Shown here one piece after another: positions 9,879-59,272 of a DNA stretch of 64,000 nt. The notes beneath the pieces were generated by a model. It did no database searches. It had not been told where the DNA came from and was given only the letters and a program-made list of their open reading frames with translations. Numbering within the stretch: the stretch's first letter is position 1; each line of letters starts with the position of its first letter. This stretch comes from a virus: IMG/VR virus record IMGVR_UViG_3300038461_000101, positions 24,724-88,723 of that record. One strand, 5' to 3'. The position numbers and the translations under genes were made by a program.

Positions 9879-9892
9879 TCAAGGAGGTTGTG

Positions 9893-10777
9893 ATGCCTAA
9901 AAAAGATGATAAGAACGAAGTGCTAGAAGGTCAGGTTGCTGATGTTCCGGGATCTGAACCACCGGAGCCCGAAGTTCCAACTGAAGCAAGTATCAAGCCA
10001 GACATGGTGAATGTAAAAAATAACGAGATCGTTCCCCATGGAGCAAATGATATTCCAATTCCCAAGGGTGCTACTCCTTTGGAGATGGTCAAGGTCGAAA
10101 CCATTGGCACCTTGAAGCTAAGTGCACATGCTGAAGAAGTGCTCAATCGTAAGATGGAGCCGGAAATAGTGTGCATCCGACCAAACGATGGCATTCTCTA
10201 TATGCCATGGACGTTCTATGCTTCCCGGCTAAACGAGGCTTTTGGTATTGGACATTGGGGCTTGATGCCACAGGGATCCCCTCAGATAACCAAGCAAAGT
10301 CCCAAGCAGGATCTTGTGGTTTGGGGATTTGCTCTCTTTGTCGAAGGAATCTTCATCAGCTTTGCCATTGGCGAGATGTCCTACAATACGACAAATGCTA
10401 AGATGTCCTATGCAGATGCTGCCGAAGGTGCCAAAAGTAATTCCCTGGCCCGTAACTGCAAGAACTTGGGTATGACACTTGAGTTATGGGATAAGGAATG
10501 GTGCGAAGAATGGAAAAGGAAATTCGCAAGGAAAAATGGTGATGATTGGGTCAGGCAGATACCCAAGAAGCCAGTCGATACTATAGCTACCGTGAAGGCA
10601 TTATGGATTGCCCAGGCCATTGATAAGGGTATCCTGATTGACCGCAAGGATGAAGGTGGCTTCAAGATCCTGACTACCTTATTGGGTGAGACCTACACCA
10701 AATTGAGTGATGAAAATCTGGCCGCCAATAAGAAGGCTGGCCTTGAGTTGATCGCCGGGTGGAAACCTTCGCTCTAG
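9893..10777 (+). CDS. Rad52/Mgm101-like single-strand annealing protein
   Basis: 294 residues from ATG 9893 (AAGGAGG five bases upstream; GTG 9890 is too close). After an acidic, low-complexity N-terminus of about 60 residues, the core YMPWTFYASRLNEAFGIGHW matches the Rad52-superfamily signature of aromatic-x2-R-L-N-x-A-F-G-x-G-x-W, followed by AEGAKSNSLARNCKNLGM, a typical segment of this fold. Such proteins anneal complementary single strands in phage recombination. No partner exonuclease is visible nearby. Confidence 0.78.
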   Translation: MPKKDDKNEVLEGQVADVPGSEPPEPEVPTEASIKPDMVNVKNNEIVPHGANDIPIPKGATPLEMVKVETIGTLKLSAHAEEVLNRKMEPEIVCIRPNDGILYMPWTFYASRLNEAFGIGHWGLMPQGSPQITKQSPKQDLVVWGFALFVEGIFISFAIGEMSYNTTNAKMSYADAAEGAKSNSLARNCKNLGMTLELWDKEWCEEWKRKFARKNGDDWVRQIPKKPVDTIATVKALWIAQAIDKGILIDRKDEGGFKILTTLLGETYTKLSDENLAANKKAGLELIAGWKPSL

Positions 10778-10838: not shown

Positions 10839-11210
10839 ATGTTGGACCATGTATCTTTTGACGGTTTGGTTGTGGCCGGTTCTACCAGATGGTCGAAGCA
10901 CAAGACAAACTTCACCGTGTCTGGTGATTATGCCGCTTGTCCAGAGATTGAGTCTCAGTCCCTGGCACAGTACAAGCGTTCTGAAACTGCAGTGCATGTG
11001 ACAGTCTTTGTCTCTGAAAACGAGAAGATTGAATGTGACGCTTACATCGCTACAGTAGCCACTGACTGGATCCAGGACAAGACCAAGGTTACTTTCTCGG
11101 TCTCTGGTACCAAGAAGTTCGAAGGATCTGCCAGCGTCCTGGGCACCTGGGATGAGAAGGAAGTGCCAGTAACTGTTACGATCGAACCTCTTCAGAAGGC
11201 ATTGGTATGA
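10839..11210 (+). CDS. Hypothetical beta-rich protein, 123 aa
   Basis: RBS GAGAGGAG. Alternating hydrophobic pattern with many Val/Thr residues suggests an all-beta fold; no Cys cluster, no signal peptide. It overlaps the radical SAM gene by 4 nt. Function unknown. Confidence 0.68.
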   Translation: MLDHVSFDGLVVAGSTRWSKHKTNFTVSGDYAACPEIESQSLAQYKRSETAVHVTVFVSENEKIECDAYIATVATDWIQDKTKVTFSVSGTKKFEGSASVLGTWDEKEVPVTVTIEPLQKALV

Positions 11211-11998
11211 GCTACGGTCTGATCTATGAGCCTCGGGGTGCCGCCCGGGAATATGCTCAGCTGGCCTGTAATGTCTACCATGGTTGCGAACATGGGTGCC
11301 GATATTGTTTCGGCCCCAATGTTCTGCGCCAGGAGAAAACCACATTCCACGAACAGGCTGGAGAACGTCCCAACTTCCTTGTGCAATTGAAGAAGGATGC
11401 TGCAAGGTTACGCGATCAAGGTGTGAAGGGTCAGGTGCATCTTTGCTTTACCACGGATCCTTACCAGCCAATGGATGTGAAGCTCGGAATTACTCGAAGC
11501 ACGATTGAAGTTCTCCATGCAAATGGTTTCAGTGTAGCCATCTTGACCAAGGGAGGTAGTAGATCCCTGAAGGACATTGATTTGTTTGGCCCCACTGATG
11601 CCATGGCAGCCACGATTACCTATGCTAGGGATGAGGACAGTCTGCGCGAAGAACCCAATGCTGCTCTCCCACAGGATCGTCTGGATGCTCTGAAGATATT
11701 CCATAATGCCCATGTTCCCACATGGATCTCCTGTGAACCAGTCCTGGACCCCAAGCAGACCTTGTATTGCATTGAACTGATGCACTATTGGGTGGACCAT
11801 GTGAAGGTTGGAAAACTCAACCATGATCCCAAGCGGGAAGCCACGATTGACTGGTACAAGTTTGCCAAGAATGCAGTGAAATTACTGGAACGCCTGGGCT
11901 ATAAGCGCATTCTGGATCCGGATGATGCAGTCAGGGCCACCAATGATAACCGAACTTTCTATGTGAAGTCCGGGCTTGTCAAATTTCTGGAGGCTTAG
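11207..11998 (+). CDS. Radical SAM protein
   Basis: 263 residues. The [4Fe-4S] motif CEHGCRYCF (CxxxCxxC) at about residue 25 and the preceding NVYHGC resemble the SplB/Rv2578c-like radical SAM group. The barrel segments TTDPYQPM and ISCEPVLDP fit that group. It would cleave AdoMet to form a radical; the substrate is unknown. It sits four bases into the preceding gene, which may be a partner. Radical SAM genes occur in phages, where roles include base or tRNA modification and DNA repair. Confidence 0.85.
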   Translation: MSYGLIYEPRGAAREYAQLACNVYHGCEHGCRYCFGPNVLRQEKTTFHEQAGERPNFLVQLKKDAARLRDQGVKGQVHLCFTTDPYQPMDVKLGITRSTIEVLHANGFSVAILTKGGSRSLKDIDLFGPTDAMAATITYARDEDSLREEPNAALPQDRLDALKIFHNAHVPTWISCEPVLDPKQTLYCIELMHYWVDHVKVGKLNHDPKREATIDWYKFAKNAVKLLERLGYKRILDPDDAVRATNDNRTFYVKSGLVKFLEA

Positions 11999-13036: not shown

Positions 13037-13372
13037 ATGAATATCAAGTTAGCAGAAGCGTTATTGCGGCGGAAAGAATTGCAAGCTAAGGTGGATCAGC
13101 TCCATACCATCCTCCCGGCACAGCTTTACGAACTGAAGGTTGCTCGGCGCAACATCAATGAGACCGTTGACGACATCACGGCCCAGGTGCCTCGCCTGAA
13201 TGCAGCCCAGGTCACTTCCGAGTATGACTTCTATGCTCGGCAGCTGCGCCTCGTGGATGCGGCCATCCAGCAAGCAAATTGGACGACCACCCTGGAAGTG
13301 GGCGAATCTGTCATGGCTGATTGGTCTGGCCCTGCAGCTGTGCAGGGTTCCACTCTTCCTTTGAAGAAATAG
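13037..13372 (+). CDS. DIP1984-like protein
   Basis: 111 residues, RBS AAAGGAG. The opening MNIKLAEALLRRKELQAKVD and the following helical pattern resemble the DIP1984 family (start with KLAEAL..R..LQ..I..L). The family has no settled function. A hairpin CCCTGCA/TGCAGGG lies in its last codons (13330-13347), and the large structured element begins 4 nt after its stop. Confidence 0.55.
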   Translation: MNIKLAEALLRRKELQAKVDQLHTILPAQLYELKVARRNINETVDDITAQVPRLNAAQVTSEYDFYARQLRLVDAAIQQANWTTTLEVGESVMADWSGPAAVQGSTLPLKK

Positions 13373-13375
13373 AAT

Positions 13376-13694
13376 GTTTGGCGGGTCTCTGGTGATTGAG
13401 AGTGCGTTGGGTAAAGGCCGCTCGGAGCCTAAATCCGTAGGGAATGGCCGTTCCCATAGCGAACTGAAGCAGAACAGTAAACCTGCGCCTCCAATGCTAA
13501 TGGAGCATTCGAAATGTCCACCACGTTGGGCACTTTGAACCGGGCACCGGTTGCCTTGAAGCCGGGTAACTCCGATTATCCTAACCACTACTCTTTCATA
13601 TCCGATTGGCCGACTGTGATTATCTGAGAACTCCGACTGTGATCCAGCCCGACTAACCAAGCCCAGGCTCTCTTTCACCAGAGACCCGCCAAAC
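13376..13694 (+). ncRNA. Candidate structured RNA, 319 nt
   Basis: Closed by a perfect 20-bp inverted repeat: GTTTGGCGGGTCTCTGGTGA at 13376-13395 and its exact complement at 13675-13694. The stem continues inward across a TT/TT loop with GAGAG/CTCTC (13398-13402 with 13668-13672) and TTGGG/CCCAG (13407-13411 with 13662-13666). Internal hairpins include AATGCT/AGCATT, AACCGG/CCGGTT, GGGAA/TTCCC and AAATGTCC with a bulged GGGCACTTT. CCGACTGTGAT occurs twice (13610, 13633). No plus-strand gene covers it, and a terminator follows 12 nt later. A MITE-like element is the alternative, but no target-site duplication is seen. Not recognised as a known class. Confidence 0.6.
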
Positions 13695-13706
13695 CCATAT
13701 AATCAA

Positions 13707-13732
13707 AACCGCCTCCAGCAATGGAGGCGGTT
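13707..13732. terminator. Bidirectional intrinsic terminator
   Basis: Stem AACCGCCTCC / GGAGGCGGTT with loop AGCAAT. CTTATTTT follows on the plus strand and TTTGATT on the minus strand. It separates convergent plus and minus gene blocks. Confidence 0.85.
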
Positions 13733-29080: not shown

Positions 29081-32000
29081 TCAATTGTTTAGGTCCTGGG
29101 CAACGGTTCGAATAATGAAGTCTCGAATCTTTTCATTGCCGATGAAGATCTGAATGACCTGTGGTGTATTCCCGCCACCAGTTCCCCTTGCAAGAGATAG
29201 GGAATGGTTCAGGGAAGAACCCTTGAGCTGGCTATTGGGGGTGACATTGAAACCACCACCAGGAAGGGCCGTAACCAATTCTTCATAGCCAGTTGGAATA
29301 CCAGAGAGACTATCACCAACAATGGCTGAGCCACCAGGTCTTACTGAACCACCAGCAGCGCATTTGACAGAGTTATGGGTGAGCATTTTCTCTGCATAAT
29401 ATTCATGCTGGCCGCCAACAACCATGGTGTAGGTTGGAACTTCAACTTCTGTATAGGACATGTCGATGATAGATTCATAACCTTCTTCGAAGGTAAGGAT
29501 CTCATCTCCAATTTCCAGACCACCAATAATATCCAGACCATAATAGGATTTTTCAGAAGCCAGGGGATCAATGGATTTCCAACCGTGGCGAGTATACATT
29601 GGGTGATCGTTGGTTAGATTGAGAATCTGACCACTGGCAAACTTGATAGTCCAAATACCTTCTCGGATCGGTTGGATAAGGCCATGTACTTCAACACCTT
29701 CCTTTTCGAAGTGATCATTCTTTCCCATGACTATATCGCCAAGTTTCACATCTTCAATGGCCCTTTCGGAGCCATCACCCATCAGGATCTTGGTACCAGC
29801 CAGAAAGCAGCACAATCTTCCTTCATCGGTTGGAATAGGAAGACCAAGAGCTTTCATGATGTCTTTCCAGGCTTGCACTAATCCAGCGTCAAGAAGAGCT
29901 ACTGCTCCAGCAGCCTTGGCAGCATCAGTTGAGAGATCAAGTTCAGTTGTGGACAGATCCTTTTGGTCCTTGGCAGCCTGAGCTGCAATACCAGCGGACT
30001 CTGTAGCAAGTTTCTGCTGTTCAACGAAGTTGGCCCGGGCAAGCTTGATGGATTGCAGTTCCAGATCCATCTGTACTGCATAGAACTCTTTGGCCTTATC
30101 TAACTGTTGCTGTTGAAGTTGCTTGGTCTCTTCGAACTGTTTGATCTGCAGTTTGTATTGTGCTTCCTGGAGAGCCCACTGTTGTTTTTGATAGCCAAAC
30201 TCAGTCTGACGTTGACTGGTTTGCATGTTGTATTCAGTGATGTTCTCTTTCTGCTGCATTTCTCCGAGTCGACGTTCACGGCCAGAAGTGAAACGAGCTT
30301 GTTCTTTGTACATAGTCTGGCTGAAGCCAAATTGCTGAGCAGCCATAGCCGTATTGAAACCAAACTCTTCGGTTCCTTGTGCACGACCAAGAGCCATTCC
30401 TTGGGCCTGTAACCCCATGGATTGATAGAACTGACTGGACTGCAGGTTGATTTGTTTCTGCTGCATTCCAAAGCCGAATTGGGTTTGTGCAATTCCAAGA
30501 GCACGCTGAGCATCTTCAATACCCCATTGTCCACCACCCTGGGAAGTGAAACTACCAGTACCGGGAATACTCCAGGAAACCTTACCAGTATTGAGACCGA
30601 AATTGCCACCGGTTTGCGGATTGACCAAACCAGCATAGTTCTGTAATCCCACTCCTGTAGTAAAGGCAAGATTAGCTGCAATACCTTGTTGCTGAACTCC
30701 AACTCCAGCCATGGCAAGTTCATAATTCTTGGCAATCGCAGTCTGTTGTACTTTGATGGATCCACCGGCAGCAGCGGCGGCCATGTAGGGATTATTTTCC
30801 CAACCAGCTCCGAAAATCTTTCCAGCCATTTCACTGGAACTTGGACCACCAAGAATACCCAAACTAGATGTTCCATAGGCCATACCAGTAAGTTGGCCGC
30901 CTGGAGTTACATCAGTTCTGGCAAGATTATAGGCAGGCATGGTTCCACCACCCATAAGAGGTAGGGGTGCCATCTTGTTGTAATTGATGCCATACTTGGC
31001 AGCAGCCACACCAAATCCAAGTGGGTTCTTCTGAGAGATCATCTCCCACATGGTATAGTCCTGGAAAGGAATAGTATATCCAGTGGGAGCTACATCCTGA
31101 ACCCTTTTGATTGCTTCAGGACCAGCTAGGGGCGCAGTAGGAGCAACGGCTGGAGGAGTAATCCCAATATCATTATTGTTGAGAGCATTGATGAGATTGT
31201 CTCTCGTTGAAGGTTGAGGTGAAAGACTACTTGGGACCGCAGTTGCTCTTTCTCCTCCAATGTTTGCAAATTTCAATACATGATTTACTACATCCATAAT
31301 AGATTTAGGTATTGGATTCTTGGAGAAGTAGTCTTTTTCAGATATGCCTGGACTTACTGAAGGCTTATTGCCTTGAGCAGCTTTGGCCGCCAGATCTGAC
31401 TTGAGTTTTTGAAGATCGACCGAAGTGTTTCCAAGAGTGGCAGCAGTTTTTGTAATGGTCAATGGAGGGGTGGATAATGTAGTAGCAGGACTACCATTGA
31501 TAGACTCATGACCACTTGTAGTAGTTGGAGGTCCAAAAGCAGCAGCGATTTTAGCAACCATTTCAGCATCACCCGCTGTAGCTGCCTGCATACCCATGGT
31601 ATTGGCGAGATTATCTCGGCGTGCTTCAAGACTAGCATAGGAATTGGCCTGATTTTGCATTACTTGAGCAGCACCAATTGTCTGCTGCATAGGTGCAAGA
31701 TCAAGAGGATTGATACCTGTAGGAATGCCAAGCATTGTCTGAGCAGTAAATTTCTGAGAAGCTGCCTGATAATATTGAGTTGTTGTCTGATCCAGACCAC
31801 CCCATGCCTGAGCCCAGGTGTTCATTTGTGTCATTTGGGCCTGAGAAGGAGTCCCTGAAGTAGCCAATCGCCCCATCTCGGACCATCGCAGACTTGGCAT
31901 ATTTCCAAGAGTAGCAGCACCTGCAGCGAACAGTTTCTGTTCTTGCATACTCATTGGAACTTTCTCATTGTTGAGTTGATTGGCTACGATCGTAGCGGCC

Positions 32001-35000
32001 AGGCTTGGTTGATTTCTGGTACCAGTGATCTGTGCTTGAGGATAACCAAGACCATAGAGAAGGTTCTGGTAAGCTCCTAAGTAATCAACACCCTGAGCAT
32101 ATCCCTCTGCCATACGTTGTGCCCCAACCTGAGAGAGTGGAGCTGTTGGATTTTGCACCATGAAAGTTGCAGGAGCAATCAGAGTTTCCTGGGTACCCTT
32201 ATATCCTTTGTCTACCATGTTGGTAGCAAGGGCTGCAGCGGCCTCGGTTGGAGATCCTACAGAAGCCATGAAACCCATTGCTTTGGCAAAAGATGATGGA
32301 GTACCAGTTTCACTAAGAGCAGCTGTAGCTCCCTTATACATTGTACTGGATTGCTGGATAGCAGCCAGTTTTGTAGCAGATCCCTGGATACCAAGAGCTG
32401 TACCGATCTTGGCAGTCTCGGTTGAGAAGTATGCTTCTATGTCCGATCCCATGAAACCATAGGTCAAGTTGGTATTATTACCTGGCATTGCTCTTGCAGC
32501 GGCATAACCTACCGATGTAGTATCCCGGGCCTCAGCAGAAGCAACAAAGGATCCTACACCTACTGCCAATGCTGCTGCCAATCCTAACTTAGCTCCAGCA
32601 CCTGGATTGGTTTCTGCAAGTTTCGGGAATGCACTTTGGAGATAGAACTCACTGGCACCGGCTGCAGCTACACCTGCAAATATTGATTGACCCAATGCCA
32701 TAGGTGTGGGGTTCTTGGCACTCCAAACATCCATCATCTGTTGAGGAGTTTGTCCACCATAACGGGCTGCCATTTGTGAGGCTGCATAAGCTGCCGGAGA
32801 CACAAAGGGTGCATTGGCACCAAGAACACCATTGGCATAATTCGCCATAGCCTGCTGAGCCTGCTGAGCTTCAGGGGCACCATAACCAACACCTTCAGTG
32901 ATAATGCCAGCAATACTTCTGGCATACATCAAGCCAAATCCACCAAGAGCTTTACGAGCAAATCTTGCAAATGGGGACATGGCAGCATTGACAGCTATGG
33001 CTTTGTCGCCCTGCATTTCGGCTGATGTTTGTTCGAGTAGGCCCTGGTCAGCCTGAGTAATCATGCCACCATTAGCTTTGGTTCTGGCAGAGATCTCAGC
33101 CACAGTTGCCACATTAGAAGCAAGTCTGGACTCAGCAAGTGGACCCTTGAGGGCTGCTTGAGCTTTCTCAAAAGCTTCACCAGTACTCTTTACGGCAGCG
33201 GCATGTTGAGTTACTGATTTGGTATCATCTCTTAAAGCGGCTGCATGGGCTACTGCTGTCTTCTGTAATTCATCCACGGCTGCCTGGGCAGCTGGATTGA
33301 GTTGTGTTCTCTTCTCAAAGGATCCACTCAAAACATCAGCACCACTTTCACCCTTGATGGCTTTCAGTGTACCGGCCATCTGAGTGAAGGAATCTGGTAG
33401 GGCTGCCTTGGTGACATCACCAGTTAGACCCGACTGCATTCTCACAACTGCATTAGCTACACCAGCAAGTTCTGGATTGGTTCGAAGGATCCCTTGAAGG
33501 GCTTGGGCTTTTTCTTGATAACCCATTCCTGGATTGAAGAGGCCTCGTTGGGCCATTGCCGCATTGAGTTTGGCAAAGTCCTGTCCTCCAGTACCTACTC
33601 CAGAGACCAGATTATTGATTTGGTTCAGCTGCTCAACATTGCTTGTGATCGAACCAAGAACTCCCTGCAGACCAAAACCTACATTGATTGCATGACCTAA
33701 CTGGCCGGGAGCTTCTTCAGCAGCCTCAGTATTTTCAATCATTGCCCGTTCACTAGGCGATATATCAATAGGATCTGCAAAGGAAGTAGCTACAGATCCC
33801 ATGATCACTTTCTTCTTGATATTCGCCAATGTCTTGATACGGGCAGCTTCAGGGGCCAACTTACCAATTAGTCGAAGAGCATTGGGACCACCAAGCCCCT
33901 TACCTACACCTTCAACAATTTCTTTTGTGGTGGGTGGATTGCCAGTGCGAGGAAGAAGATTCTCTGCTTCCAGAATGTCCTGAATACGATTGACCGTTTC
34001 AGTGCCAGTAACATCCTCACCCATATCGGTTACAGGACCAGCCATGCCAATGGCAGCCAGGGCTGCTTGGATTGCATCCTTGGCTACTCCATGGCTCATT
34101 CTGAATATCTGTGAAGCTTCATTCCCGAGCATAACTTTCTCGACATCGGGATTGTAGGTCGTGGAACCAGGTTCAGCCAGATAGGAACTTACTCGCTGAT
34201 TTTGGTTATTGAAAACAGGGATCTCGTTGGTTCTGAAATGACCAATGATGGTATCGCCTTCGCCACCGTAGAAGTTGATCCTTCCACCTTGGCGAGGAAT
34301 GATTGTTTCACCAGCCTGAACCGTAATATCTCCATGACCTTCAGCATCTTTTCGACCATGTAGATCTTCAGGACGAATGGGGCCACCAGTATCGAATCGC
34401 TTATCACCACTCTCTGATTTCTTGGGCCACTTTGGAATTTCAGGGCCGCCTGATTCTGGCTTAGGAGGCCAGGGATAGGCTGTCTCATCACCAAAGGGAA
34501 TTTCTGGAATGTCATCCCAATTGAAGTTATCAGGTCCATCCAGAGGAGTTGGAGTTTTCGGAAGTTGTCTGGCCGCATCTCTCTTCGCTTTTTGGTTGGC
34601 TTTCCATTCTGCAAGCCATTTGGCATATTCTGCAGGATCTGAAATGTGACCAGATTTTGTCGGCCCATTGCCAGATGTTCCAATTGGAAGATCGGTAGAT
34701 GTAGTGGGTGGACCCATTGGAGGAAGACCCTGATTGGGTACACCCGTAGGAAGTGAAGCCAAAACTTCTCCCTGCAGGGGAGTAAGCCTCAAAGCTGATT
34801 CAATTACTTTAGTAGGAGTAACTTGACCAAGTGCATTCTTGGCAAGCTGATTGGCACCCTTATGGAGCAATTGGATGGTCTTCCCCATCTGTGCTTCAAC
34901 TTTTTTGTCAGCCAGGACCGCTGCATCGGCAGGTGACATTGGGGTAGCAGCCCTTGCCCCATAGGTTCCCATGAGTTCTTCAAGAACTGCTTCAGGAGCC

Positions 35001-38000
35001 ATTCCTTTGGCTTCAGCGAATGGTGTGATCAGGTCTCTTATTTCCTGGTCGGCATAGGTATAAGCATCGACTGGAGAAATACCTCTGGACACGGCTCGTT
35101 GAGCATACATATGAGCCTTGTAATCAATGGCACTGACAACGGTATTTTCCTCTGGAAGAGTATAGGGAATGCCATAATTGTTTGCCAGGGTTATCAGTTG
35201 ACTGCGGGTAATGCTATCGGGAATATCTCCAATTGATTTGGAGATCATGGCTGCAGGAACATTTACCTTGCGTTGAAGAAGGTTGATGATACCAGCCGCC
35301 CGAGTAATGGCTTCAACGTGGAACTTGTTCTCAAAGACGTTCCTTGCAATCCTGGACTCGTTTAGGAACTTCTCTTCTTGAGATCCAGGGGCCGGTTTCT
35401 GATATTCCAAACCTTCTGCTTTTCGAGTGGCTGCAGTAACAAAGGGTAGGAAAGCTGGTAGGCTCATCATAGATTGGGTGAATGGTTTGCGTTGTCTCTG
35501 ACCAAGTTCTGTCGAGACATCTGCCAGTCGATGCAACCCATGCTCAGCCAATTCTTTGGAGCTGTAGAGATTCCCCGTGTCTGGATTTACTGGATCACCA
35601 GTCAGAGTATTGATATGGTTGGTGATTGCAACCAGATACTGGCTGCTCAGATCCTTGGAGGGATCGGCGGCTTCCAGCTTCTTTTGAAGAATAGATTCCT
35701 GGCCTGGATAACTGAATGCCTGAGCCAGAAATTCAGGACTGGCAATTTCAAAACCTTCTCCCTTACCACCCACCTTGATCTTGGTTGTCATCATGGCTGC
35801 GATAGAACCAAGAGCATTCACTACCTGGGGCTGGTCAAGTGTTTGTAGTGGAATTGCCATTCGGTTGGTTCGGCCACGTTCATTGACCACGTTGCTACCA
35901 ATAATTAGCTCGGCCTCACCAGTTCTTTCATTCAATCCAAAGCGAGACTTGGCAATGGCACCGGCCCAACCAACACCTTGGGTTTCCTGACCAAGATTTG
36001 TCTTATCCAAGGGGAATTGATAGAAGGACTGCATTCCTGCATAGATCCGAGATTGAGCTTCTTCGGAGTAACCAGAAGCAGCCATTGTAGGAATGACAAC
36101 TCGACGGATGTTATAGGATTCGCCCATGCCAATTTGGGCATACCAGGAGTTCAGACCGGCACTAATCACATCCCCATATTTCTTCCAACCAGCCTTCTTG
36201 ATGGTTTCTCCAATGACGTTGAAGTTGGGATCCACTAGATCATTGACAGCCTTTACAGCACCACTGGCAAGATCGGCTTGTTCAGGGCGGAACATCTTTG
36301 ACTCAATATCGAAGGTTCCTTTGGTAGTGAGGCGTTGACGGTTCTTCAGTTCCTGGAATGCTTTGCCTTGTTCAGCATTGCCACCCATGACAAAAGCACC
36401 TACCACAGGATCATAGTCAAAGTCACCTACACCTACGCTGGCAAATTGCTGAGAGACAAAGAGAGCACCCTTGAACTCTGGACTGTGAAGAAGCTGGTTC
36501 ATGAACTTGCCACCAGTGCGGTTGCGCATCTCCTCGTCACCAAGGAGATTGACACCCATAATACTTTCCAGTTCAGTGCCCTGCGGATAACGAAGCATGA
36601 AACCCTGCAGTGGGCCACCCATGGACAATTCCTTCATAGCCTGCTTCATATCCTTGCGCCGAACACCACCTGCTTCCAGTAACTTTCGGCGTTCTGCAGG
36701 TGGCAACCAGACTTCATCAGGGCCTAAGGCACCTAAGTAACCAAACCGACCACCCCAACCAGTAGGCATAGGTCGGTTATGGACAGCCTTATAAGCCTCA
36801 CCACCACCTTGGAAAATATCTCTCCATTGATCGAACAAACCTTTTACTGCAGTCTGACCATATTCCTGGAGTTTCTCAGGAGCTGTGCCAGAGAAGGCTT
36901 GGAGTTGGGCAAGTTTCTCAATGCCCTTACCCCACGTTCTGGTAACACCACCGATCTCTTCTCCGGTAGGGCCCTTGAACTGCAGTTCCTTGACGGTCAG
37001 GGGGTTCATGTCATAGGTATTGGAAAGCGGAAAATAGAGTAAGCGATTATCACCTTCCTTGATGTCAAGGATCCCGGCCATCCGATCGAGGGTTTCCTCG
37101 GTCATATTGCGACCACCACCGGTCGCTCCAACGATACCAGCCATAGCCAGGGCTTTGCCCTGATCTACTTCGATATAGGAAGTAGGGAGAATAGCGGGGG
37201 TTTGACCTTCACTTACACCCATCTGCCAGGAAACAAATGCTGAGGCTGCGGTGAGTGCCTTAGCCTGGGCTCCCTGATGCTGGATTGGTTTTGAAACATC
37301 CAGCCCCATCTCTGAAGCAAATTCTGGAAATTTGGCTGTAATAGATCGGGCCAACTCTTCATTGGCACCATGCCCATGCACAAATTCCAATTGCCGGGGA
37401 AGAGCTGTACGAGCGATCATTGCATGACCAGAAGCAATTTGAGAAAGGGTGATCATGTCTGATCGACCCAATGCTTCCTGCCCAATCAATGCTTTGGCGG
37501 CTGCCTGAACATCAATTGTTCCACCTGTTTTGAATTGGTTCAGAACAGCGTCAATGTCTGCCTGGGTAGCTCCTGGTTTTTTGCCTCGAACACTTCTGGC
37601 TGTAATCTGTTGAATGAACTCAAGGTTGGCCGGATGAGTAGGCCCATAGGGTACTTCGATGTTTGGGAGATACCCAATTCCGAAACTCTTCAGGTTGAAT
37701 AGATTGCGTCTTCGTTGTTTCTCATTTGCCATATCGACATCAACGAAGACCTTCTGGAATACATCCAGACCAAGGCCCTCTGAAGGTTCTTTCCAACCTC
37801 CACCAGCTGCATTGAACTTTTGGGCGATCTCTTCCCAATCGGTTGTCTCATTGCTTTTTCCCAACCAACGAGACACTTTGTAGGCTGCATTGCTGGCATC
37901 GCCTTCTGTTTGTCTACTATAGGAACGGAAGATTCCTGCCAATTGCGATCGTGATTGGTATCCTAAGATACCTTCGGTGATTGCAGAACCACCTTTCATT

Positions 38001-39481
38001 TCCCCGGTCACGTATTGAACATTTAGATTGCCAGTGCCCAGGGGAACTTTCAATCTTTCACCAGTTGGGGTGAGAGAGTATTTGTAGCCAAGACCACCTA
38101 CTTTGGTAGGCACATCATAGCCAACCCCACCAATGTCAAGTGAAACCTTATCAATGCCAAGAGCACGAACAGCCCATCCGGTTCGAGCAGTTATATCTCT
38201 GGCAACATCTTCAGTGGATACAGCATTGAGATCCGTCATTGGCACAGGAGCCCCGGTATCCTTGTGCATGAAGGCTGGAATAGTCATTGAGATTTGAGTT
38301 GGAGAAAATTTGGAAGATCCTGTTTTGAAGGTTAGTGGATCACCATTGATTGTTCCTGCACTATAGGTATGCCCAGGAAGGTATCGTTTCCCACGAATGT
38401 CCTTGATCTGAAGGGGACTGTTTGGACCAGCCAATGATCGTATATCTTCAATGGGAACATTGACTGGCTCAGTAGTAGGATACCCATATGTCTTTTCTCT
38501 TTGGGCTCCTGGCATGACCATCGCAAGACCACCACCACCAATGAATGTGGGGGTGAATAAGACATTTCCAATCTCATTTACTCTTGGTTCGGCTTCTCCT
38601 GGAACTCTCAAAGTGGCAATTCCATAACTTGGAGCATATCGGTTCATGATGGGTTGAGGCTGGTTTTCAACCAGTTCATCACGACCTTCGAGATGGATCC
38701 AGTGATAGGGTTTGGCTCCGCCACGACCATAATCAATGCTTGGAACGCCCACCATCTTTTCAGCATTTCGAAGACCATAGACCATATCAGTGGTCGCATC
38801 ATATTCACCAATGGGACTGAGGTTGGCTTTCTTATCCAATGCCATACCAATCCCACGAGCATCTTGCCAACGAACACCAGGTGCATGAAGAGGATCTATG
38901 GGGCCATAGCCGGTCATCAATTTCATGTTCAGCATCTTGAGAGCATCCTGCTGCTCGTAGGGTGCCAATTTGGTTTGGTCAAATTTTTGGGTTACTACAT
39001 TGATGCCCTGGACTTCCCTATTCTCAACCGCCTGGAAGGAGTTCCATGGAGTACGACTATATTTACGAGTGTTAAACTCGGCATTTAGAGCAGTATTAGG
39101 ACTTTCTCCTATACCCTTATAGAATGTTGTCCAGGCATTTTTGATAGAAGATGCAAGATTCTCCAAAGGTGTAGTGATTTCATCTCGAACATCATTTTTG
39201 GAAAAATAAGTAAGGGTATGGGTGGATGGAATTACAACAGCACTACCACGTTCTTCCTGGTTCCCGATCATTGGCACAGGGCCATACAAGTTGCGCTGAG
39301 CTGAGATGGAGAAGTCAAAATCCATCGCATTTTCAGTATCCTCCCCAAAACCAATTGAGACCCGCTCCATATGTTGGGAGGGGTCCATTTCAGGGTGGGC
39401 TACATGATATTGTGGCCCTAAATATTTTTCGAGAATACTCAGGTTGTCAACCTGAAGCGTGCTTCGACGTACTCTACTCAT
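29081..39481 (-). CDS. Tape-measure protein with intein
   Basis: 3466 residues as encoded, about 3320 after removal of the intein. The last third shows tape-measure features: Ala/Gly-rich helices, hydrophobic spans (KLGLAAALAVGVGSFVASAE), a long Gln-rich coiled coil near residues 2990-3180, and a C-terminal AAGGSVRPGGSAIVGD block typical of these proteins. The first 1700 residues are unusual, globular and unrecognised; a linker near residue 1700 is Pro/Lys-rich. At about 1.5 angstroms per residue the tail would be about 0.5 micrometre long. Position between tail chaperones and distal tail gene supports the call. Confidence 0.88.
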   Translation of the reverse strand: MSRVRRSTLQVDNLSILEKYLGPQYHVAHPEMDPSQHMERVSIGFGEDTENAMDFDFSISAQRNLYGPVPMIGNQEERGSAVVIPSTHTLTYFSKNDVRDEITTPLENLASSIKNAWTTFYKGIGESPNTALNAEFNTRKYSRTPWNSFQAVENREVQGINVVTQKFDQTKLAPYEQQDALKMLNMKLMTGYGPIDPLHAPGVRWQDARGIGMALDKKANLSPIGEYDATTDMVYGLRNAEKMVGVPSIDYGRGGAKPYHWIHLEGRDELVENQPQPIMNRYAPSYGIATLRVPGEAEPRVNEIGNVLFTPTFIGGGGLAMVMPGAQREKTYGYPTTEPVNVPIEDIRSLAGPNSPLQIKDIRGKRYLPGHTYSAGTINGDPLTFKTGSSKFSPTQISMTIPAFMHKDTGAPVPMTDLNAVSTEDVARDITARTGWAVRALGIDKVSLDIGGVGYDVPTKVGGLGYKYSLTPTGERLKVPLGTGNLNVQYVTGEMKGGSAITEGILGYQSRSQLAGIFRSYSRQTEGDASNAAYKVSRWLGKSNETTDWEEIAQKFNAAGGGWKEPSEGLGLDVFQKVFVDVDMANEKQRRRNLFNLKSFGIGYLPNIEVPYGPTHPANLEFIQQITARSVRGKKPGATQADIDAVLNQFKTGGTIDVQAAAKALIGQEALGRSDMITLSQIASGHAMIARTALPRQLEFVHGHGANEELARSITAKFPEFASEMGLDVSKPIQHQGAQAKALTAASAFVSWQMGVSEGQTPAILPTSYIEVDQGKALAMAGIVGATGGGRNMTEETLDRMAGILDIKEGDNRLLYFPLSNTYDMNPLTVKELQFKGPTGEEIGGVTRTWGKGIEKLAQLQAFSGTAPEKLQEYGQTAVKGLFDQWRDIFQGGGEAYKAVHNRPMPTGWGGRFGYLGALGPDEVWLPPAERRKLLEAGGVRRKDMKQAMKELSMGGPLQGFMLRYPQGTELESIMGVNLLGDEEMRNRTGGKFMNQLLHSPEFKGALFVSQQFASVGVGDFDYDPVVGAFVMGGNAEQGKAFQELKNRQRLTTKGTFDIESKMFRPEQADLASGAVKAVNDLVDPNFNVIGETIKKAGWKKYGDVISAGLNSWYAQIGMGESYNIRRVVIPTMAASGYSEEAQSRIYAGMQSFYQFPLDKTNLGQETQGVGWAGAIAKSRFGLNERTGEAELIIGSNVVNERGRTNRMAIPLQTLDQPQVVNALGSIAAMMTTKIKVGGKGEGFEIASPEFLAQAFSYPGQESILQKKLEAADPSKDLSSQYLVAITNHINTLTGDPVNPDTGNLYSSKELAEHGLHRLADVSTELGQRQRKPFTQSMMSLPAFLPFVTAATRKAEGLEYQKPAPGSQEEKFLNESRIARNVFENKFHVEAITRAAGIINLLQRKVNVPAAMISKSIGDIPDSITRSQLITLANNYGIPYTLPEENTVVSAIDYKAHMYAQRAVSRGISPVDAYTYADQEIRDLITPFAEAKGMAPEAVLEELMGTYGARAATPMSPADAAVLADKKVEAQMGKTIQLLHKGANQLAKNALGQVTPTKVIESALRLTPLQGEVLASLPTGVPNQGLPPMGPPTTSTDLPIGTSGNGPTKSGHISDPAEYAKWLAEWKANQKAKRDAARQLPKTPTPLDGPDNFNWDDIPEIPFGDETAYPWPPKPESGGPEIPKWPKKSESGDKRFDTGGPIRPEDLHGRKDAEGHGDITVQAGETIIPRQGGRINFYGGEGDTIIGHFRTNEIPVFNNQNQRVSSYLAEPGSTTYNPDVEKVMLGNEASQIFRMSHGVAKDAIQAALAAIGMAGPVTDMGEDVTGTETVNRIQDILEAENLLPRTGNPPTTKEIVEGVGKGLGGPNALRLIGKLAPEAARIKTLANIKKKVIMGSVATSFADPIDISPSERAMIENTEAAEEAPGQLGHAINVGFGLQGVLGSITSNVEQLNQINNLVSGVGTGGQDFAKLNAAMAQRGLFNPGMGYQEKAQALQGILRTNPELAGVANAVVRMQSGLTGDVTKAALPDSFTQMAGTLKAIKGESGADVLSGSFEKRTQLNPAAQAAVDELQKTAVAHAAALRDDTKSVTQHAAAVKSTGEAFEKAQAALKGPLAESRLASNVATVAEISARTKANGGMITQADQGLLEQTSAEMQGDKAIAVNAAMSPFARFARKALGGFGLMYARSIAGIITEGVGYGAPEAQQAQQAMANYANGVLGANAPFVSPAAYAASQMAARYGGQTPQQMMDVWSAKNPTPMALGQSIFAGVAAAGASEFYLQSAFPKLAETNPGAGAKLGLAAALAVGVGSFVASAEARDTTSVGYAAARAMPGNNTNLTYGFMGSDIEAYFSTETAKIGTALGIQGSATKLAAIQQSSTMYKGATAALSETGTPSSFAKAMGFMASVGSPTEAAAALATNMVDKGYKGTQETLIAPATFMVQNPTAPLSQVGAQRMAEGYAQGVDYLGAYQNLLYGLGYPQAQITGTRNQPSLAATIVANQLNNEKVPMSMQEQKLFAAGAATLGNMPSLRWSEMGRLATSGTPSQAQMTQMNTWAQAWGGLDQTTTQYYQAASQKFTAQTMLGIPTGINPLDLAPMQQTIGAAQVMQNQANSYASLEARRDNLANTMGMQAATAGDAEMVAKIAAAFGPPTTTSGHESINGSPATTLSTPPLTITKTAATLGNTSVDLQKLKSDLAAKAAQGNKPSVSPGISEKDYFSKNPIPKSIMDVVNHVLKFANIGGERATAVPSSLSPQPSTRDNLINALNNNDIGITPPAVAPTAPLAGPEAIKRVQDVAPTGYTIPFQDYTMWEMISQKNPLGFGVAAAKYGINYNKMAPLPLMGGGTMPAYNLARTDVTPGGQLTGMAYGTSSLGILGGPSSSEMAGKIFGAGWENNPYMAAAAAGGSIKVQQTAIAKNYELAMAGVGVQQQGIAANLAFTTGVGLQNYAGLVNPQTGGNFGLNTGKVSWSIPGTGSFTSQGGGQWGIEDAQRALGIAQTQFGFGMQQKQINLQSSQFYQSMGLQAQGMALGRAQGTEEFGFNTAMAAQQFGFSQTMYKEQARFTSGRERRLGEMQQKENITEYNMQTSQRQTEFGYQKQQWALQEAQYKLQIKQFEETKQLQQQQLDKAKEFYAVQMDLELQSIKLARANFVEQQKLATESAGIAAQAAKDQKDLSTTELDLSTDAAKAAGAVALLDAGLVQAWKDIMKALGLPIPTDEGRLCCFLAGTKILMGDGSERAIEDVKLGDIVMGKNDHFEKEGVEVHGLIQPIREGIWTIKFASGQILNLTNDHPMYTRHGWKSIDPLASEKSYYGLDIIGGLEIGDEILTFEEGYESIIDMSYTEVEVPTYTMVVGGQHEYYAEKMLTHNSVKCAAGGSVRPGGSAIVGDSLSGIPTGYEELVTALPGGGFNVTPNSQLKGSSLNHSLSLARGTGGGNTPQVIQIFIGNEKIRDFIIRTVAQDLNN
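29372..29809 (-). other. Mini-intein (Hint domain) in tape measure
   Basis: 146 residues, residues 3225-3370 of the tape measure. Block A CFLAGTKILMGDG begins with the splicing Cys; block B has NLTNDHPMYT with the conserved T-x-x-H; block F/G is TYTMVVGGQHEYYAEKMLTH followed by Asn. The +1 residue is Ser. Flanking exteins GRLC and SVKCAAGG rejoin into a normal tape-measure C-terminus. No homing endonuclease domain is present, so it cannot spread by itself. Confidence 0.85.
34678..34689. repeat. TTCCAATTGGAA palindrome, copy 5
   Basis: Within the tape-measure gene, read on the minus strand as Leu-Pro-Ile-Gly-Thr. Confidence 0.9.
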
Positions 39482-59198: not shown

Positions 59199-59272
59199 GC
59201 CCCTGTAGCTCAAATGGATAGAGCATCGGCCTTCTAAGCCGCAGGTTGCTGGTTCGAGTCCAGTCAGAGGCA
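59199..59272 (+). tRNA. tRNA-Arg(UCU)
   Basis: Cloverleaf: acceptor GCCCCTG with CAGAGGC (one C-A mismatch), D arm GCTC/GAGC, anticodon stem CGGC/GCCG with loop CTTCTAA giving anticodon TCT, T arm GCTGG-TTCGAGT-CCAGT. Discriminator A; no CCA is encoded. It reads AGA, a codon common in this genome. An upstream hairpin GAGACTGG/CCAGTCTC (59159-59194) may aid processing. Confidence 0.92.

Follow-up and report, generated by a model that had tools for sequence, protein, structure and literature searches.

What is the gene-free stretch of about 320 nt that follows a small phage gene in an 88.7-kb viral record, and what could it be doing there? We analysed a window of 64,000 nucleotides from this record (the whole stretch of DNA studied here), in which the candidate RNA element occupies positions 13376-13694 on the plus strand. 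A sequence-only reading had taken it for a large structured RNA, and named a MITE as the alternative.

A structured element behind a DUF6847 gene

The element begins 3 nt past the stop codon (13372) of a DUF6847 gene, and no gene lies on the plus strand between that stop codon and 13694. Its ends form a perfect 20-bp closing stem, P1 (13376-13395 with 13675-13694), around 279 nt, as the sequence-only reading had described. The two helices that it had placed inward of this stem are also present: P1b pairs 13398-13403 with 13667-13672 and P2 pairs 13407-13412 with 13661-13666, the 3' strands of both lying together at 13661-13672. The terminator said to follow the element corresponds to a terminator-like hairpin at 13707-13732 (plus strand), 3' of the RNA and itself followed by CTTATTTTAG; convergent genes, a GH25 endolysin among them, lie past this hairpin.

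The plus strand of the element folds with −127.5 kcal/mol, compared with −94.0 ± 4.7 for shuffled sequences (z −7.1). The minus strand also beats its shuffles (z −5.4), as is expected because the long stem can form on either strand. Several features had escaped the sequence-only reading: the DUF6847 gene itself, a pseudoknot at 13415-13437, a self-complementary loop at 13445-13450, an anticodon-like hairpin at 13489-13505, and the fact that an 11-mer repeat is part of an array with a 7.6-nt period.

Homologous RNAs in other phages

A DNA similarity search of the element in phages gave no match, and the search was therefore run via the neighbouring protein, DUF6847. The first scan found DUF6847 relatives in 56 viral contigs, about half of which showed, at first look, a long inverted repeat starting within some 15 nt after the stop codon. 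The arms of P1 differ in sequence between relatives and yet remain complementary, and BLAST showed internal RNA segments common to some of the relatives. A second scan enlarged the set. A genome scan added three bacterial assemblies (a Planctomycetota MAG, Legionella maceachernii and a Desulfosporosinus MAG), and phage records added Vibrio phages of the PS32B group and 1.264.O (Zobellviridae). Homologous RNAs, on the same strand as DUF6847, are thus found beside this gene in about 80 viral contigs, in these Vibrio phages and in the three bacterial assemblies; several of the loci are close relatives, and the counts are not counts of independent events. In the two Vibrio phages that were inspected, the RNA is an annotation-free stretch of 300-370 nt between the DUF6847 gene and sigma-factor-like genes.

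Two sequence probes were tried and rejected. A 14-mer from the P1 arm matched 119 viral stretches by chance, an outcome that is expected because the arms drift in sequence, and a CCGACTG-repeat pattern returned two known loci and one chance match in coding sequence (L182).

DUF6847 is a near-obligate neighbour

The DUF6847 (PF20935) gene of the window (13037-13372, plus strand) encodes 111 amino acids and matches the Pfam family at 1.5e-07, with 31.9 bits against a gathering cut-off of 27. DUF6847 is a phage subfamily distantly related to DIP1984; the DIP1984 family model (NF038048) gave 36.6 bits, below its NCBIfam cut-off of 70, over the C-terminal part only. The invariant positions are A6, L9, R12, K13, L15, R37, L70, R71 and the segment DAAIQQANW, and the invariant residue types include R, K, Q, N and W. 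AlphaFold predicts, with modest confidence (pLDDT 71), a helix, two strands and a second helix, and Foldseek found no relative at E<0.001, only a weak likeness to prefoldin-beta and 3kdq.

The core model R1 detects the RNA, on the same strand, in 65 of 83 DUF6847 loci at E<0.001; these E-values are rough, and some 40 of the 65 loci are the model's own training rows, which leaves about 25 as independent finds. A further four loci (L184, L152, L164 and L166) score between 0.001 and 0.1, and the RNA was read by eye in others, including L133, L157, L178, L180, L227, L267 and L268. L173 is the only locus with DUF6847 and no recognisable RNA in the available sequence; an apparent array end there turned out to be coding sequence. 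At L173:3337-3710 there are two tRNA-like pieces, each with a T-arm and paired ends and no clear D-arm, with a small gene between them.

The association was also approached from the RNA. Pattern scans that started from the RNA yielded 20 contigs, 16 of them already known via DUF6847, and in all four new ones DUF6847 adjoins the RNA. Neither 517 kb of unrelated viral DNA nor 273 other genomes of L185's class gave a match to R1, and the cellular DIP1984 loci carry no such RNA. We infer that DUF6847 is the binding partner of the RNA. The neighbouring genes are mostly of the early or replication kind, with an exception in L186 (a tail assembly chaperone), so an early role fits better than that of a packaging RNA.

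The conserved core: a pseudoknot and a self-complementary loop

The core of the RNA begins with an H-type pseudoknot, PK1 (13415-13437, plus strand), in which S1 pairs AGGC (13415-13418) with GCCT (13427-13430) and S2 pairs CGGA (13423-13426) with TCCG (13434-13437). Hairpin C follows at 13440-13455. Every pair of S2 (four) and of hairpin C (five) has changed on both sides across the family. In alignment A2 (41 rows), 88.4% of cells are paired and the covariation score is 0.709; shuffles gave 0.232 ± 0.020 and slid partners no more than 0.157. In part of S1, MAFFT put about half of the rows out of register, and this weighs against the structure. If the helices are instead read by a descriptor, the pairs of S1 and S2 vary widely and are all standard, the latter by construction; the descriptor is biased to paired solutions (the shuffled maximum being 11.6). 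G-U pairs fix the strand, placing the RNA on the plus strand. Covarying homologues in viral metagenomes, which the sequence-only reading had named as the check on its proposal, therefore exist, and its structured-RNA reading is supported by covariation far above the shuffled and slid controls.

The 6-nt loop of hairpin C (13445-13450, TGGCCG in the window) was not scored by the descriptor. In 40 of 43 distinct cores this loop is self-complementary over all six positions, and its inner four nucleotides are so in all 43; a letter-shuffle control gave a mean of 8.8 and a maximum of 20 of 43. The loops comprise 20 different 6-mers, 19 of which are fully self-complementary, including UGGCCA, UGCGCA, AGUACU, AGAUCU, AACGUU, UGUACA, AUCGAU and AAGCUU. 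Within a single loop the inner four bases have no way of pairing with each other, which makes a homodimer by loop-loop contact the straightforward interpretation, and hairpin C may well act as a kissing loop that joins two copies of the RNA in vivo.

An exchangeable tRNA-like cassette

Between hairpins D and E lies the variable part of the RNA. Hairpin D (13469-13486, plus strand; GCAG/CTGC, with ACAGUAAA in its loop) has similar hairpins in relatives, and hairpin E (13547-13565, plus strand; CCGGTT/AGCCGG) precedes the 3' array. In the window, this part contains an anticodon-stem-loop-like hairpin at 13489-13505 (plus strand; CTCCA-ATGCTAA-TGGAG), at the site where relatives have a tRNA-like cassette. 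The window element forms no cloverleaf, and the only tRNA in the window is a tRNA-Arg at 59199.

Inside the RNA elements of many relatives, ARAGORN and Rfam recognise tRNA cloverleaves; those called by ARAGORN, in about 20 elements, have diverse anticodons. A survey of topology by simple rules found 24 cases with the D-arm and T-arm in normal order, including a separate tRNA after the RNA in L129 (a second, complete tRNA-Asn at L129:3655-3729, immediately 3' of the element). By the same rules, 11 loci (L125, L132, L142, L145, L147, L153, L154, L159, L164, L254 and L261) show a circularly permuted order; here a loop caps the acceptor stem of 4-8 bp, and the opened anticodon stem connects the domain to the RNA body. 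Many of the normal-order copies have few contiguous acceptor pairs. Because acceptor ends are capped and acceptor stems are short, service as an ordinary tRNA is unlikely for many copies, and these predicted stems argue against charging and use in translation.

Reduced cassettes of the window type retain a hairpin of the anticodon kind whose 7-nt loop is mostly N-Y-N-N-U-A-A, and this loop is kept even where the remaining tRNA has been lost. Cassettes are also swapped. In L128 and L131 the gene is 96% identical and the RNA core 87-100%, compared with 43-60% for the cassette; in L267 and L268 the gene is 99% identical and one cassette block 33%; and PS32B.1 and 1.264.O differ most at the cassette site.

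Some further variation was seen in this region. Most anticodon-like loops of the relatives end in UAA (an anticodon ending in U), a second class ends in UUGG (Gln-like UUG), and the loop class appears to differ between PS32B.1 and 1.264.O. In L153, L159 and L172 hairpin C is followed by two tandem tRNA-like domains in one RNA, with two T-arms; after one of these come a D-arm of Leu type and an anticodon-like hairpin.

A single-stranded array of nearly fixed length

The 3' part of the RNA (13571-13659, plus strand) is an unpaired array with a period of 7.6 nt, and a consensus fold of the array in relatives predicted no pairs. It is made of 11 units with a purine-A and is about 76 nt long, in which CCGANT units and weaker ones, for example NNGAAC, alternate; the unit boundaries were read by simple rules. 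The power at the 7.6-nt period is 0.390, compared with 0.051 ± 0.007 for the null, and the mismatched-arm controls of this analysis, which covered arm complementarity as well, include related loci. Despite sequence variation, the distance from the first to the last unit is 75-77 nt in about 50 loci, and in the window it is 77 nt (first to last CCGA). The duplicated CCGACTGTGAT that had been noticed from the sequence, with copies at 13610 and 13633, belongs to this array: both copies lie inside it, 23 nt or three pitches apart.

A subfamily (L186, L242, L258, L259 and L266) has an extra hairpin inside the array, with array units on both sides and, in several members, a GTAGTGACGACA-like stretch.

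Comparison with known RNAs

The statement of the sequence-only reading that the element matches no RNA class known to it holds against Rfam 15, in which no family matched at gathering score. A literature search on DUF6847, DIP1984 and septicolysin, on permuted phage tRNA, on tRNA-bearing phage RNAs and on tRNA decoys found nothing on the element in open-licence papers (no preprints). The RNA family is previously undescribed in these sources.

GOLLD is the closest in kind. It is a structured RNA of phages and prophages that forms a homo-oligomer and whose linker sometimes holds a phage tRNA (PMC12286853). The likeness thus extends to the phage origin, the oligomer and the occasional tRNA. GOLLD is, however, often longer than 800 nt and lacks a constant protein partner, whereas the element described here has about 320 nt, occurs with DUF6847, and combines permuted tRNA forms with a palindromic dimer loop and an array of 7.6-nt period; and while GOLLD assembles into a homo-oligomeric nanocage (a 14-mer), the loop predicted here is of the dimer type. 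The Rfam covariance model of GOLLD gave no match in the window or in 20 related loci. ROOL is an ornate RNA of phages and prophages with a conserved intermolecular kissing loop (PMC12286853). It differs in size (about 600 nt), and its Rfam covariance model does not match the element. We know of no internal tRNA cassette in ROOL.

Single aspects of the element recall other systems. The OLE RNA is a large RNA encoded beside its protein partner OapA, much as this RNA lies beside its putative partner DUF6847; the two differ in sequence, length and hosts. The dimer initiation site of HIV-1 is a hairpin with a self-complementary 6-nt loop, similar to the palindromic loop of hairpin C, whose dimer we predict from sequence; the RNAs are unrelated. 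Circularly permuted tRNA genes of algae and Archaea have the T-arm before the D-arm and mature by circularisation (PMC3978253, PMC3218864). They give rise to a normal tRNA; in the present family, by contrast, a loop caps the acceptor and the tRNA-like domain forms part of a larger RNA.

Proposed function and alternative explanations

The existence of the RNA family, its plus-strand orientation, the pseudoknot, the self-complementary loops, the pitch of the array, the swapping of cassettes and the near-obligate DUF6847 neighbourhood are well supported by the computation. We consider it fairly probable that the element acts in trans as a dimeric RNA-protein particle, likely with DUF6847, that presents a tRNA or anticodon mimic to the tRNA or translation machinery of the host. 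The element, which we take to be one stable RNA, would be a phage-encoded structural RNA produced together with the DUF6847 protein. P1 would close it, with pairing kept while sequence drifts, as in RNase III-type processing stems; pseudoknot and hairpin would form the core, with the hairpin loop mediating homodimerisation; and the variable middle would display an anticodon-like stem-loop or a whole tRNA-like fold, normal or circularly permuted. The 3' array may serve as a single-stranded ruler, its 11 purine-adenine units most likely running along a protein oligomer, for which DUF6847 is the natural candidate. Early in infection, the particle would present this mimic to a tRNA-handling host factor, such as an anticodon nuclease or the ribosome, with the cassette being exchanged as the target changes.

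That the cassette is exchanged rapidly while the scaffold is conserved suggests such a changing target, with anticodon nucleases of host defence as one candidate and the ribosome as another. Taken alone, a mimic or decoy function is a tentative proposal, to which we give less than an even chance; it may not be general, because the window copy has an anticodon-like hairpin and no full tRNA. More speculative still is a version in which a DUF6847 ring or filament is assembled on the 11-unit array and swappable, even permuted, tRNA mimics soak up anticodon nucleases or further host defence proteins aimed at tRNA; this would be a counter-defence system scaffolded by RNA, with its bait changed as a cassette.

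An RNA directed at the ribosome, for hibernation, rescue or host shut-off, is an unlikely alternative to this particle. It would enter by its tRNA-like domain in the manner of tmRNA, and the persistence of the NYNNUAA loop where the rest of the tRNA is gone would suit such a role. The tmRNA has a pseudoknot and a tRNA-like domain, both of which recur in the element family, and permuted versions exist. However, the acceptor stem of tmRNA is made of the two RNA ends, while here the ends form P1 and the tRNA-like domain, with its acceptor end, is internal and often capped. The family also has no tag reading frame, and neither Rfam nor ARAGORN reported a tmRNA; the different topology and the missing call exclude tmRNA itself.

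It is less likely again that the RNA is a cis-acting untranslated element that controls the DUF6847 mRNA alone, through its stability or by autoregulation. Most RNAs do start 3-15 nt past the DUF6847 stop codon, as such an element would. Yet in L184, L152 and L166 the RNA precedes the gene, and in L146, L161, L141/L143 and L150 it follows after a gap of some hundreds of bases to about 1 kb. This variable order and distance argues against an element that is purely an untranslated region, for which an 11-unit ruler and a tRNA-like cassette would also be more than is required.

We regard as improbable a third possibility, a carrier or precursor whose scaffold protects ordinary phage tRNAs until RNase P and RNase Z cut them out. 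It would account for the tRNAs with diverse anticodons, and GOLLD linkers also sometimes contain phage tRNAs (PMC12286853), but it is hard to square with the loop-closed permuted copies, with the scarcity of acceptor pairs in normal order, and with the window and other elements that retain only the anticodon-like hairpin. A DNA element, for instance a cruciform-forming replication origin of the iteron type, could explain the evenly spaced repeats and the replication genes near several copies; the G-U pairs on one strand, the covarying pseudoknot and the tRNA folds point to RNA and make it very improbable. The MITE or other mobile element that the long terminal inverted repeat had brought to mind is refuted on present data by a single copy per genome with none at unrelated sites, a constant gene neighbour and arms that change in a compensatory way.

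The family represents a new class of large structured RNA with a near-obligate protein neighbour, and its presence in cultivated Vibrio phages makes it directly testable. In Rfam and the open-licence literature searched, we found no match for permuted tRNA folds as a module of a bigger RNA, nor for a single-stranded RNA ruler with a 7.6-nt pitch. Some phages thus appear to carry an RNA particle that mimics tRNA. Should the cassette be a decoy, it would provide a swappable RNA-based answer to host defences that target tRNA, and would be relevant to how GOLLD and ROOL RNAs use the tRNAs located within or beside them.

Other genes of the window

Upstream of the DUF6847 gene, the early region encodes a homologue of Mgm101, a Rad52-type annealing protein (9890-10777, plus strand), and a radical SAM protein (PF04055, phrog_13321) lies at 11207-11998 (plus strand). 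On the minus strand, positions 29081-39481 form one reading frame of 3466 codons.
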